Shown: positions 25,007 to 28,889 of the stretch, piece after piece
Layout of the letters: the number at the start of each line of letters is the position of its first letter
Position numbering within the stretch: position 1 is the first letter of the stretch
Notes under the pieces: generated by a model
What the model was told of the DNA's origin: nothing
The model's input: only the letters and a program-made list of their open reading frames with translations
The model's database searches: none
Program-made: the position numbers and the translations under genes
Origin: Enterobacter cloacae subsp. cloacae ATCC 13047
Lineage (GTDB): Bacteria; Pseudomonadota; Gammaproteobacteria; Enterobacterales; Enterobacteriaceae
Reading direction: 5' to 3'
Length of the DNA: 64,000 nucleotides
Assembly (NCBI RefSeq): GCF_000025565.1
Contig: NC_014121.1
Coordinates: forward strand, 2,604,001 to 2,668,000

Positions 25007-25113
25007 AGCTTTAAAAGCTCTCCCTCATTGCGGCAATCATAACCCAGGCGCATAATTAGCAGGCTTATTACTTCATGCCTTACGGTGCGCTGCACCTCAT
25101 TATGCGGATTGTT

Positions 25114-26331
25114 ATGTCACCCTCAGATGCCCCCATAAACTGGAAACGTAACCTTACGGTTGCCTGGCTTGGCTGTTTTCTTACCGGCGCGGCGTTTAGC
25201 CTCGTGATGCCCTTTCTGCCCCTGTACGTTGAACAACTGGGCGTGACGGGCCACAGTGCGCTCAATATGTGGTCTGGTCTGGTGTTCAGCATCACTTTCC
25301 TCTTCTCCGCCATTGCTTCGCCGTTCTGGGGCGGCCTTGCCGACCGTAAAGGGCGTAAAATCATGCTGCTGCGCTCGGCGCTGGGAATGGCCATCATCAT
25401 GGCGTTAATGGGTGTGGCGCAGAACGTCTGGCAGTTTCTGATTTTGCGCGCGCTACTTGGCCTGCTGGGAGGATTTATTCCCAACGCGAATGCGCTGATC
25501 GCCACCCAGATCCCGCGTCATAAAAGCGGCTGGGCGCTCGGGACGCTCTCAACCGGAGGCGTCAGCGGCGCCTTGCTGGGGCCTCTGGCGGGCGGCTTGC
25601 TGGCGGACAGCTATGGCCTGCGCCCGGTATTTTTCATTACTGCCAGCGTGTTGTTCCTCTGCTTTATCGTTACGCTGATCTGCATTCGTGAAAACTTCAC
25701 CCCCGTCGCCAAAAAAGAGATGCTCCACGCACGGGATGTGCTGGCTTCACTCAAAAACCCCAGACTGGTACTGAGCCTGTTCGTGACGACACTCATTATT
25801 CAGGTCGCGACCGGTTCGATTGCCCCTATTCTGACGCTGTACGTTCGCGATCTGGCAGGTAACGTGAGCAACATTGCGTTTATCAGCGGGCTGATTGCCT
25901 CCGTACCCGGCGTGGCGGCGCTGCTTAGCGCCCCGAGGTTAGGGAAACTGGGAGACCGTGTCGGCCCGGAAAAGATCCTGATTTGTGCGCTGGTGATCTC
26001 CGTGCTGCTGCTCATTCCCATGTCGATGGTGCAATCACCCTGGCAGCTGGGCGTTCTGCGCTTTTTGCTGGGTGCCGCCGACGGGGCGTTACTGCCCGCC
26101 GTTCAGACCCTGCTGGTTTACAACTCTACGAACCAGATCGCCGGGCGTATCTTCAGCTACAACCAGTCATTTCGCGACATCGGCAACGTTACCGGCCCGC
26201 TGGTGGGGGCCGGGATCTCCGCCAGCTTCGGTTTTCGCGCCGTATTTATCGTCACGGCGGGCGTAGTACTGTTTAATGCGGTTTACTCGTGGTTCAGTTT
26301 ATCCCGGACATTACGGCCGGTGGCGGAATAA
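25114..26331 (+). CDS. mdtG: MFS multidrug exporter MdtG
   Basis: 405 residues from [21 protein letters not shown] (E. coli 408); in-frame ATGs upstream at 25075 and 25102 lack family similarity. Twelve spans; MFS motif A in [15 protein letters not shown]. In E. coli it is a mar/sox/rob-regulated exporter giving fosfomycin and deoxycholate tolerance. msyB would be the next gene, but its start is now separated from its body by a mobile-element scar. Confidence 0.95.
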
Positions 26332-26428: not shown

Positions 26429-26461
26429 ATGACCATGTACGCCACGCTGGAAGCATCGTAA
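26429..26461 (+). pseudogene. Orphaned native 5' end of msyB
   Basis: An ATG with a good AGGGAG ribosome site encodes MTMYATLEAS then stop. The first eight residues, MTMYATLE, equal the start of E. coli MsyB (MTMYATLEEAIDAA). After ACGCTGGAAG (26444-26453) the sequence departs from msyB. The rest of msyB resumes at 28530 after the same ten bases. This is the native promoter side of a gene split by integration. Confidence 0.85.
26440..26457. other. Left attachment-site remnant (attL-like) in msyB codons 5-9
   Basis: The shared core ACGCTGGAAG (26444-26453) is preceded by native msyB sequence (ATGACCATGTACGCC) and followed by foreign AT-rich sequence. The partner site is at 28526-28543. Short cores flanked by unlike arms are usual for serine integrases. 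Confidence 0.72.
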
Positions 26462-26679
26462 AGTAAAATACATACATAATTGTACCATTACATTATCCGG
26501 TCATAAGTACGTACTTTAGCCTTTGGCTTTATCAGTCCGTCCTGTCAGAATCCCCGGGTTCGTTTTAAACACGCATAGCCTATAACCTTAGACTTCATAC
26601 GCCATTGAAAGATCCTTATAAGGGGTGTATATTCTCACAAGCTGTTCATCCAAACAGTACGCAAAGATAAGGAAATGTA
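26462..26679. other. Left arm of the island remnant; no gene seen
   Basis: 218 bp of AT-rich sequence between the attL-like core and the truncated gene at 26680. No credible reading frame or RNA gene was found. It presumably holds the promoter of the truncated gene. Confidence 0.5.
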
Positions 26680-26793
26680 ATGGCAGATAATTCAGAATCT
26701 TTTGCAACAATAGAACAAATCACCTCACGCCCAAATTTTTCTTCCGATGTAGAAATTACTGTTAAAAGTTTTCGTTCTCTTGTAGGACGCTGA
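26680..26793 (+). pseudogene. Truncated unknown island gene (first 37 codons)
   Basis: An ATG with AAGGAAAT ahead of it opens a frame beginning MADNSESFATIEQITSRPNF. It runs to the IS boundary at 26790 and stops at once on the TGA that begins the IS inverted repeat. The peptide is not recognised. The A+T-rich composition differs from the neighbouring mdtG and opg genes. It is the 5' end of a cargo gene whose remainder is lost. Confidence 0.7.
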
Positions 26794-26861
26794 CCTGCTC
26801 CCCGTTGATTAGTACACCCCGATGTTAGTAATGTCTTCATAAGCCACATGAGGACATCCCC

Positions 26862-27125
26862 ATGAAGAAGCGTTTTTCCGACGAACAGATCATCAGTATT
26901 CTCCGCGAAGCCGAAGCTGGGGTACCCGCCCGTGAACTCTGCCGCAAGCATGCCATTTCCGATGCCACGTTTTACACCTGGCGTAAGAAGTATGGCGGTA
27001 TGGAGGTGCCTGAAGTTAAGCGCCTGAAGTCGCTTGAGGAAGAGAACGCCAGACTCAAGAAGCTGCTTGCCGAAGCCATGCTGGATAAAGAGGCGCTTCA
27101 GGTGGCTCTTGGGCGAAAGTACTGA
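26862..27125 (+). CDS. IS3-family transposase OrfA
   Basis: 87 residues. A helix-turn-helix DNA-binding domain ([42 protein letters not shown]) is followed by a leucine-zipper-like segment ([25 protein letters not shown]), the standard IS3 OrfA plan. It recognises the IS ends and is the N-terminal part of the OrfAB transposase. Confidence 0.93.
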
Positions 27126-27982
27126 CGACAGACCAGAAGCGGGAAGCCGTGATGTTGATGTGTGATGCGACCGGTCTGTCGCAACGTCGTGCCTGCAGGC
27201 TTACAGGTTTATCCCTGTCGACCTGCCGCTATGAGGCTCACCGTCCGGCTGCTGATGCGCATTTATCAGGGCGCATCACTGAGCTGGCACTGGAGCGCAG
27301 GCGTTTTGGCTACCGTCGTATTTGGCAGTTGCTGCGCCGTGAAGGGCTTCATGTTAATCATAAGCGCGTGTACCGGCTTTATCACCTCAGTGGCCTGGGC
27401 GTAAAACGCAGAAGACGTCGTAAAGGGCTGGCAACAGAACGTCTGCCGCTGCTCCGTCCGGCGGCGCCCAATCTGACCTGGTCGATGGATTTCGTCATGG
27501 ACGCACTTTCCACCGGTCGCAGGATCAAGTGTCTTACCTGCGTCGATGATTTCACAAAGGAATGCCTGACGGTCACTGTTGCCTTTGGGATTTCAGGCGT
27601 TCAGGTCACGCGTATTCTGGACAGCATTGCACTGTTTCGAGGCTATCCGGCGACGATAAGAACTGACCAGGGGCCGGAGTTCACTTGCCGTGCACTGGAT
27701 CAATGGGCCTTTGAGCATGGTGTTGAGTTGCGCTTAATCCAGCCGGGCAAGCCAACGCAGAACGGATTTATTGAGAGCTTTAACGGACGATTTCGCGATG
27801 AATGTTTGAATGAGCACTGGTTCAGCGATATCGTTCATGCCAGGAAAATTATTAATGACTGGCGGCAGGATTATAACGAATGCCGCCCGCACTCCACGCT
27901 GAATTATCAGACACCGTCTGAATTTGCAGCGGGCTGGAGAAAGGGTCATTCTGAGAATGAAGATTCCGACGTTACTAACTGA
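27116..27982 (+). CDS. IS3-family transposase OrfB (DDE integrase domain)
   Basis: The frame lies -1 relative to orfA and overlaps its end; the GCGAAAG region near 27113-27119 is the likely slip site. An internal GTG-ATG start at 27149-27154 is also possible (277 residues). An HTH_21-type N-terminal part is followed by the rve catalytic core. The DDE triad is visible in [19 protein letters not shown] and [15 protein letters not shown]. All catalytic residues are present and the frame is intact, so the element may still be active. Confidence 0.92.
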
Positions 27983-28011
27983 GTGTTGTATCTAATCGTG
28001 GGGGCAGGTCA

Positions 28012-28453
28012 CACGTTCAATACTTGTGGATAATGCAGATAACTTGTGATCGAGCTTATAGCTGTAGATTTGCCCCGTTTCAACTTCAACAATATCAATG
28101 TTACGTTTGATCAGGAAAGTAAACTCATCAATTGCATCATAGCCCTGCTTCCTGGAAAACCTGTCAACACTCTCAATCAGCAAACAACCTTCAGTAATTT
28201 CTCCTGATCTTACACGTTCCTTGAACCGCCCCAATGATCCCTTCGTGAAGTTGTGTCCGGCGTAACCTGACAAGCCTTTATCACTTTCCAGTACTTCATG
28301 ATGGCTTGGATCAAGCTGATACCCTAATTCAGCGGGTAGTTTAGCGTTTTCGAGGAAGTCTAATACTGTACTAATCTGGCGATCTAAGCCAAAAGCATCA
28401 ACCTGCTGCAAGCTCGATACCCTACTATAGATGTAGGCTTTGACAGTTCGCAT
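28012..28453 (-). pseudogene. Serine recombinase (island integrase), N-terminal ~147 residues, truncated by IS
   Basis: Starting MRTVKAYIYSRVSSLQQVD, this is the resolvase/invertase catalytic domain. YSRVSS holds the nucleophile (Ser13 by alignment to Tn3 resolvase) and ESVDRFSR is the conserved DRxxR-type active-site patch. The frame runs into the IS at 28011 and stops 6 codons later; the DNA-binding C-terminus is missing. Its start is 47 bp from the new msyB start, i.e. at the very edge of the element, where integrase genes usually lie. It is the probable agent that split msyB. Confidence 0.85.
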
Positions 28454-28468
28454 TCATGCACCTATACA
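28440..28468 (+). promoter_or_regulatory. Element-borne sigma70 promoter reading into msyB
   Basis: TTGACA (28440-28445), a 17-bp spacer and TATACA (28463-28468) form a near-consensus promoter. It points out of the element toward the msyB start at 28500, with GAGGA 7 bp before that ATG. It overlaps the 5' end of the recombinase gene on the other strand. Confidence 0.75.
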
Positions 28469-28499
28469 TTTGATAAACATAATCATTGAGGAACTCATT

Positions 28500-28889
28500 A
28501 TGTCCGATAAAGAATATGTATTCTATAGTACGCTGGAAGAAGCTATTGATGCCGCTCGTGAAGAGTTCCTCGCCGATAACCCCGGCGTTGATGAAGAAGA
28601 TGCGGACGTGCAACAACTCAATATCCAAAAGTATGTCCTTCAGGACGGAGATATTATGTGGCAGGCCGAATTCTTTGCTGACGAAGGTGAAGAAGGCGAA
28701 TGTTTGCCGATCCTGAGCGGTGAAGGAGCTCAGGCCGTCTTTGATGGTGACTATGACGAAATTGAGTTGCGTCAGGAGTGGCTGGAAGAGAACACCCTGC
28801 ACGAGTGGGATGAGGGTGAATTTCAGCTCGAGCCACCGCTGGATACGGAAGAAGGTCAAACCGCAGCTGACGAATGGGACGAGCGTTAA
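28500..28889 (+). CDS. msyB: Acidic protein MsyB with a replaced N-terminus
   Basis: 129 residues (E. coli 124), very acidic, ending GEFQLEPPLDTEEGQTAADEWDER as in MsyB. From TLEEAIDAAREEFLADNPG onward it matches the family, but the first ten residues, MSDKEYVFYS, replace the native MTMYA. The foreign start, ribosome site (GAGGA) and promoter come from the integrated element. In E. coli MsyB was found as a multicopy suppressor of secY and secA mutants; its direct role is unclear. Codons from 28540 onward are native. Confidence 0.9.
   Translation: MSDKEYVFYSTLEEAIDAAREEFLADNPGVDEEDADVQQLNIQKYVLQDGDIMWQAEFFADEGEEGECLPILSGEGAQAVFDGDYDEIELRQEWLEENTLHEWDEGEFQLEPPLDTEEGQTAADEWDER
28526..28543. other. 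Right attachment-site remnant (attR-like) in msyB
   Basis: ACGCTGGAAG at 28530-28539 repeats the core at 26444-26453. To its left is element sequence (the new start codons), to its right the native msyB sequence AAGCTATTGATGCC. Joining the left native arm to this right arm restores MTMYATLEEAIDAA in frame. Confidence 0.75.

Follow-up and report, generated by a model that had tools for sequence, protein, structure and literature searches.

How does a bacterial gene that has lost its own start to an inserted element come to be read from another one? This question is raised by msyB of Enterobacter cloacae subsp. cloacae ATCC 13047, which was analysed in a stretch of 64,000 nucleotides (GCF_000025565.1, contig NC_014121.1, positions 2,604,001 to 2,668,000 of the forward strand; hereafter the window, with coordinates counted from its first base). 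Comparison with related genomes makes it very probable that a prophage integrated at codon 8 of msyB, and that its end supplied the gene with a new front; an insertion sequence (IS) would later have deleted most of the element in this genome. The element would have been a temperate tailed phage whose integrase is a large serine recombinase (LSR).

The split gene, its empty sites and its occupied sites

The native ATG of msyB lies at 26429, is preceded by GGGAG and encodes MTMYATLE, whereas the present gene starts at ATG 28500 with a protein beginning MSDKEYVFYST. The original prediction, made from the letters of the sequence, had placed the native start and a ten-base repeat (26444-26453 and 28530-28539) at exactly these coordinates, and its proposal that a site-specific element splits msyB near codon 8 holds to the base: the outer arms, joined by script, read MTMYATLEEAIDAAREEFLADNPG... 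through to the msyB stop, as the native empty site of relatives does, and a 50-mer across the joined flanks is found exactly in 13 of 60 same-genus loci. The inward-facing catalytic domain of a serine recombinase claimed for the right edge is confirmed by a match to PF00239 (Resolvase) at E 5.5e-7; this recombinase 5' part, on the minus strand, is included in a right remnant of 518 bases. On the other hand, the description of the intervening DNA as foreign and AT-rich suits only the two element remnants (37.7% and 40.9% GC). Most of the interval (26791-28011) is an IS that the original prediction overlooked, whose GC content (53.6%) is about that of the window (54.4%), and which leaves 337 and 518 bases of element sequence.

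The empty site is preserved in most relatives. The gene is present in all 61 same-genus genomes (60 loci read together, the one genome denoted G055 separately), and in 56 of them the native start is uninterrupted and reads MTMYA or MTMFA ahead of TLEEA, so that the expected MTMYATLEEA is joined by a variant MTMFATLEEA. The phage-type start is found in the other five, namely the window genome and the genomes denoted G049, G055, G040 and G053. Three of the 56 native-start genomes lack mdtG, the usual neighbour, in the fetched stretch (L065, L078 and L079); in two of these (L078 and L079, from G006 and G042) a different gene stands upstream of the native msyB in place of mdtG. A search limited to one exact native-start pattern matched 62 of 392 family genomes. 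In E. coli, the mdtG-msyB junction was matched in 5,375 of 5,426 genomes, 5,374 of them with at least 80% in one place, and 51 gave no match; because this count merges pieces separated by up to about 0.8 kb, a scar as short as the one in G053 might be taken for an intact junction. In the one split genome, SI-NP020, the msyB halves flank an annotated prophage that includes a recombinase, and the 39 other matches listed among the 5,375 are single pieces. A chance ten-base repeat is ruled out by the empty sites together with this E. coli pair.

Elements occupy the same msyB site in G049 (Enterobacter sp. JBIWA008), G055, G432, Kluyvera ascorbata ATCC 33433, Enterobacter sp. R1(2018) and E. coli SI-NP020. 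The most informative is G049, where a prophage of about 35 kb lies between msyB and mdtG. Its LSR has 611 amino acids, and ten of its proteins match PHROGs families for integrase, small and large terminase, portal, major head, major tail (a piece), tail, tape measure, tail fibre J and lysozyme-like proteins. The right remnant of the window is 88% identical to G049 over 529 bp, with an LSR piece 96% identical in protein. The resolvase catalytic domain (PF00239), the Recombinase domain (PF07508) and the zinc ribbon (PF13408) occur together in the LSRs of G049 and G432, whereas the truncated window copy holds the PF00239 part alone. The prophage of SI-NP020 is annotated with packaging, head and tail genes like those of G049; its large terminase is in pieces, and the prophage may be defective. 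The element of G055 measures about 27 kb, with its LSR broken by an IS of the same kind as the one in the window. In K. ascorbata and in the draft genome of Enterobacter sp. R1(2018) the LSR adjoins a phage-type msyB start, the LSR frame of the latter being broken.

These relatives bear on whether the LSR was used instead by a non-phage genomic island or integrative element, so that the window remnant was never a phage. Such a reading can point to the window, which holds no phage structural gene, and to the 12.5-kb element of G432, in which no capsid or large-terminase open reading frame (ORF) was recognised by eye. However, the nearest LSR relative sits in the full tailed-phage gene set of G049, that of SI-NP020 likewise, and the left-end ORF of the window, whose first 35 codons remain (26680-26784, plus strand), has a 331-residue relative at the same end of a prophage in G229. 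No intact element with the exact left end of the window was found. A plain genomic island is disfavoured by these full phage gene sets and is regarded as highly unlikely. The word island in the original prediction needs correction, since the intact relatives are prophages and the window copy is probably the remnant of an IS-made deletion.

Several further observations concern these elements. That of G432 (L026, between 4214 and 16600) keeps the LSR and a small-terminase-like ORF, and could be a deletion derivative or a phage satellite. Neighbouring genes in the SI-NP020 prophage (L106:23925-25225) form a CBASS-like pair, one matching the 2TM effector model of PADLOC and the other its oligonucleotide cyclase model, and the candidate defence family PDC-S31 is matched in two different elements, those of G049 (L020:16333-17115) and G055 (L022:6614-7645). 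No DNA match to either window remnant was found in the E. coli genomes, nor a match to the attachment (att) end of G049 in plasmids.

The probable exchange point and the integrase lineage

The expectation that full sites carry the LSR about 47 bp from msyB, the same core at both ends and variable cargo agrees with the window and G049, where the start codon of the LSR lies 47 bases from the msyB start and both ends bear the same 10-bp core; cargo varies among the msyB-site elements. The same ten bases are not kept everywhere, the core measuring 12 bp in G432 and 16 bp in SI-NP020, where msyB is split at the same codon as in the window and the arms share GCAACGCTTGAAGAAG. The core of G055 is reduced to 2 contiguous bp plus AGG: its left junction carries ACTCTAGAGG, as native relatives do, and its right junction ACCCTGCAGG, and since only AGG agrees around the join, exchange is placed there. 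Independently of this, when one phage arm is compared with the other phage arm in reverse complement, a dyad with the same best axis is obtained in the window (13/19), G049 (12), G055 (15) and SI-NP020 (12). This symmetry fails in G432, where the best axes lie elsewhere (10/19), which weighs against the proposed explanation.

Exchange would accordingly take place at a central dinucleotide, AA in most elements and AG in the G055 lineage, forming bases 2 and 3 of codon 8 (GAA or GAG). The site comes from comparison, and the strand-exchange chemistry would be that of the LSR family. As is usual for att sites of LSRs, the core is short with a central dinucleotide, the attB and attP arms differ and there is no long direct repeat; the dyad is centred on AA/AG in four of five elements. 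In the same five elements (window, G049, G055, G432 and SI-NP020) the orphaned native start is found at the far end.

Five sampled msyB-site LSRs cluster in a tree of 13 rows with support 94/96, which is below the star threshold of the program, and the msyB-site trait requires one change on this tree, the mean after shuffling being 4.2. The row for G055 is partial, some other rows have long branches, and R1 and the scars were left out. Relatives of the LSR were found in six of 392 family genomes with an N-terminal query (E <= 1e-20) and in 12 with the Kluyvera LSR (E <= 1e-30), this genome included in both counts. Protein databases hold at least 135 homologues at E <= 1e-30, annotated as 'recombinase family protein', in Enterobacter, Cronobacter malonaticus, Citrobacter koseri, Lelliottia, Leclercia and others.

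Among 50,697 phage records, the LSR gave 34 matches, none of them reaching 60% identity or extending over 80% of its length, with identities of 24-27% among the 20 listed. The best matches listed for the terminase (35.9%) and the major head protein (30.9%) of G049 are both in Escherichia phage DCP80 (PQ671644), a remote record of 140,978 bp with no LSR match among the same 20 of 34. Judged by sequence, this is a phage group without a close relative in these records for LSR, terminase or head protein. IMG/VR contains one LSR relative (44%), sited elsewhere, and no exact copy of the promoter and leader pattern described below.

Other members of the wider LSR group also lie beside host genes. The prophage of G229 (L024:4461-4673, L025:16564-17604) appears to sit inside mdtG; its LSR is related (56% in the N-terminal part), with a C-terminal mdtG match adjoining the LSR start and the N-terminal mdtG part at the opposite end. 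Distant LSRs stand beside truncated-looking genes, namely a pilin-family ORF in G256 (L098:1049-1450) and an Hsp70-family ORF in G134 (L099:765-1436), so the targeting of 5' gene ends may extend more widely in this LSR group.

The probable phage-supplied front of msyB

What follows the right core is still an open msyB. The end of the phage adjoining the 3' part of the gene would bring a promoter, a ribosome site, an ATG and an in-frame leader of 10 codons, the -35 of this promoter overlapping the opening codons of the integrase gene, which is read in the divergent direction. Nine loci with a phage-type start were compared (window, G049, R1, G055, Kluyvera, G432, SI-NP020, G040 and G053). In all nine a conserved F is preceded, at exactly seven codons, by an ATG; all also have a ribosome-like site rich in purines and the pattern TTGAC[A/G]-N17-TATANN ending 31-42 bp before the ATG; in all of them the 10-codon leader is in frame with an open msyB, so that the element supplies the 5' coding end. 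In the window the -35-like hexamer lies inside the integrase gene. Promoter, leader and core are identical between the window and G049 (107 of 107 bases), against 361 of 422 bases in the adjoining LSR DNA. In seven arms the promoter score was reached by only 1-20 of 1,000 dinucleotide shuffles per arm. Taken together, the sigma-70-like promoter, ribosome site, ATG and leader would form a ready-made front for msyB, with predicted transcription and translation, and the lysogen would keep the msyB frame complete, though with a different N-terminus and probably under different control.

Several points weigh against this interpretation. The promoter score was reached by 112 (G432) and 122 (E. coli) of 1,000 shuffles, and six control LSR loci, drawn from eight at other sites, score 7.5-9 with varied hexamers, two of them equalling the promoter score of 9. 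The nine loci are related and hence not independent observations, and between distant lineages 6-7 of the 11 leader codons encode different amino acids, the exact residues not being strongly conserved. In G432 and SI-NP020 a further in-frame ATG stands two codons ahead of the F, and it is at this internal ATG, not at that of the leader, that NCBI starts msyB in SI-NP020. For the msyB of this lysogen (L106:35046-35420), such an annotation would hide an upstream phage-supplied start.

The front could also be real and functionally neutral, the hexamers being a by-product of integrase codons and att symmetry, and msyB expression being hardly altered or read from elsewhere. The overlap of the -35 with conserved integrase codons, that of the leader with the dyad of the att arm, and the unexceptional scores of G432 and E. 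coli are all in keeping with neutrality. On the contrary, the spacing of 17 and the position are kept in all nine loci although G432 and E. coli have a different integrase N-terminus, the window and G049 share an identical promoter and leader where their LSR DNA differs at 61 of 422 bases, and the scars treated below retain promoter and leader without the LSR. A neutral front is thus considered rather unlikely.

In the same sigma-70 scan, the region upstream of the native start scores 7.5-8; it contains GCTATTCTT, which presumably resembles an extended -10 of sigma-S. Effects of RpoS in E. coli O157:H7 EDL933 have been tabulated, with msyB given a value of 40 and RpoS as regulator (PMC2907692). 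Lysogens would then make MsyB from a growth-phase promoter. For the protein itself a solved structure is available (8imq). The proposal that the phage takes msyB out of stationary-phase control by RpoS and places it under a constitutive sigma-70 promoter within the integrase gene, and that the window genome, G040 and G053 have permanently captured this promoter and N-terminus after losing the phage, is evenly balanced between right and wrong.

Probable loss of the prophage and presumed scars that outlived the integrase

In this genome an IS would have deleted nearly the whole prophage, leaving msyB on a phage-derived start. This IS, which is taken to be IS3-like from its two ORFs, carries transposase ORFs and has 12 further near-identical copies in the genome (13 in total, one on a 200-kb contig). 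It would separate two parts of the former element that were not adjacent, no complete element of the same lineage having been found for comparison, and it has no target duplication. Most of the prophage was presumably removed by the IS, through either an adjacent deletion or recombination between two copies. Since the C-terminal domains of the integrase are deleted, the element can hardly excise with its own enzyme. Two points count on the other side: three of seven other IS copies examined likewise lack a duplication, the remaining four having one of 4 bp, so its absence in the window is weak evidence, and the left end of the window matches that of G049 for only 33 bp. A search of this genome with the G049 terminase for the remaining prophage, which included no positive control, gave no match, and the sole match to the C-terminal part of the LSR is one other ORF of 711 residues at 29-39% identity (G000:C3:2525781-2527292, about 77 kb before the window). 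The similar IS in G055 interrupts the LSR at L022:5282-6501. The features of the window locus are collected in Table 1.

Table 1. Features of the msyB locus, in window coordinates
Feature	Position	Strand	Description or basis
mdtG, left chromosomal neighbour	25075..26331	+	intact ORF, 418 aa; named after the annotated E. coli homologue adjoining msyB
attL: orphaned native msyB ribosome site/start and first 8 codons, core at end	26429..26453	+	sequence, comparison with relatives
Left core copy ACGCTGGAAG	26444..26453		putative exchange dinucleotide AA at 26451-26452
Left prophage remnant	26454..26790		337 bases
Insertion sequence, 1,221 bp	26791..28011	+	ORFs 26862-27125 and 27149-27982
LSR, N-terminal 147 codons, ended by the IS	28012..28453	-	PF00239
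-35-like TTGACA	28440..28445	+	within the 5' codons of the recombinase gene, opposite strand
-10-like TATACA, spacer 17 bp	28463..28468	+	sequence
Ribosome-site-like GAGGAA of the putative phage-supplied msyB start	28488..28493	+	sequence
Putative phage-supplied leader MSDKEYVFYS, 10 codons	28500..28529	+	sequence
Present msyB, 129 aa, PF13984	28500..28889	+	sequence, domain match
attR: right core copy ACGCTGGAAG	28530..28539		msyB frame resumes here, runs to 28889

Reduction would have gone further in G040 and G053, to short phage traces with promoter and leader. In G053, 237 bp lie between the end of mdtG and the msyB codon for T, with neither a recombinase gene nor a native start, whereas the interval of G040 measures 1,169 bp. 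Both retain a promoter-like element, a leader and an open msyB. The original prediction had named relatives free of the island that carry an MSDKEYVFYS start as evidence against integration. G053 has this form, with the start MSDKEYAFYS and no recombinase gene; the interpretation preferred is that of an older scar, since an alignment of 119 bp at 88% covers the LSR start, promoter and leader of the window.

The same two genomes could suggest that msyB with the MSDKEYVFYS-type start is a long-standing allele of the host, unconnected with integration, for in both this start stands with no recombinase gene adjoining. However, sequence of the LSR end lies upstream in each, 173 bp aligned at 76% in G040 and the 119 bp in G053, the native start is orphaned opposite this end in the five elements examined, and the E. 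coli gene is split at the same codon. These LSR traces disfavour a host allele without integration, which is barely credible.

Across the nine loci the whole LSR frame is missing in five (window, G055, R1, G040 and G053), while the msyB front is whole and the frame open in all. Compared with the window, the leader codons show four synonymous and two nonsynonymous changes in G040 and four and one in G053; between G040 and G053 themselves there are one synonymous and three nonsynonymous changes, numbers too small to prove selection. The comparison suggests that a phage-supplied front can outlive the phage as the own start of a host gene.

Relation to known systems and significance

Both phage HK022 and the SXT/R391 elements use integrases of the tyrosine type. 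The msyB phage differs from HK022 in having a serine integrase, a site within a coding sequence, and an end that also supplies a start codon and N-terminal codons. With HK022 at torS-torT of E. coli (Carey et al. 2019, PMC6814406), the likeness is that a host gene is cut from its own promoter and a phage promoter takes over; the differences are that HK022 inserts between genes and that its promoter was shown by experiment, the promoter at msyB being predicted from sequence. SXT/R391 elements (PMC12210918 and PMC4489591) similarly enter the 5' portion of a gene, prfC, and restore a functional gene. They are conjugative elements rather than phages and act at another gene; for msyB the function of the product is predicted.

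Many LSRs targeting one conserved site within a coding gene have been described (Durrant et al. 2022, PMC10083194). In passages of that work the targets are treated as disrupted, whereas msyB is given a new front; its main text makes no mention of msyB or Enterobacter. The original prediction knew of no integration site in msyB, and the literature searches likewise showed no published report of phage attachment there, subscription literature lying mostly outside them.

The msyB case combines these known features, namely an LSR site in a coding gene, promoter replacement and 5' restoration, in one serine-integrase phage lineage, and by analogy its behaviour can be described as a variant of the promoter replacement of HK022 at torS and the 5'-end restoration of SXT at prfC. 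With msyB, a site of phage attachment on the enterobacterial chromosome is defined, which is present in K-12 and split in one of 5,426 E. coli genomes; the case would also add an example of a phage end that encodes an entire replacement front for a gene, its promoter and the integrase gene overlapping. If the proposed change of control is true, lysogeny would rewire a host stress protein, with msyB freed from RpoS.

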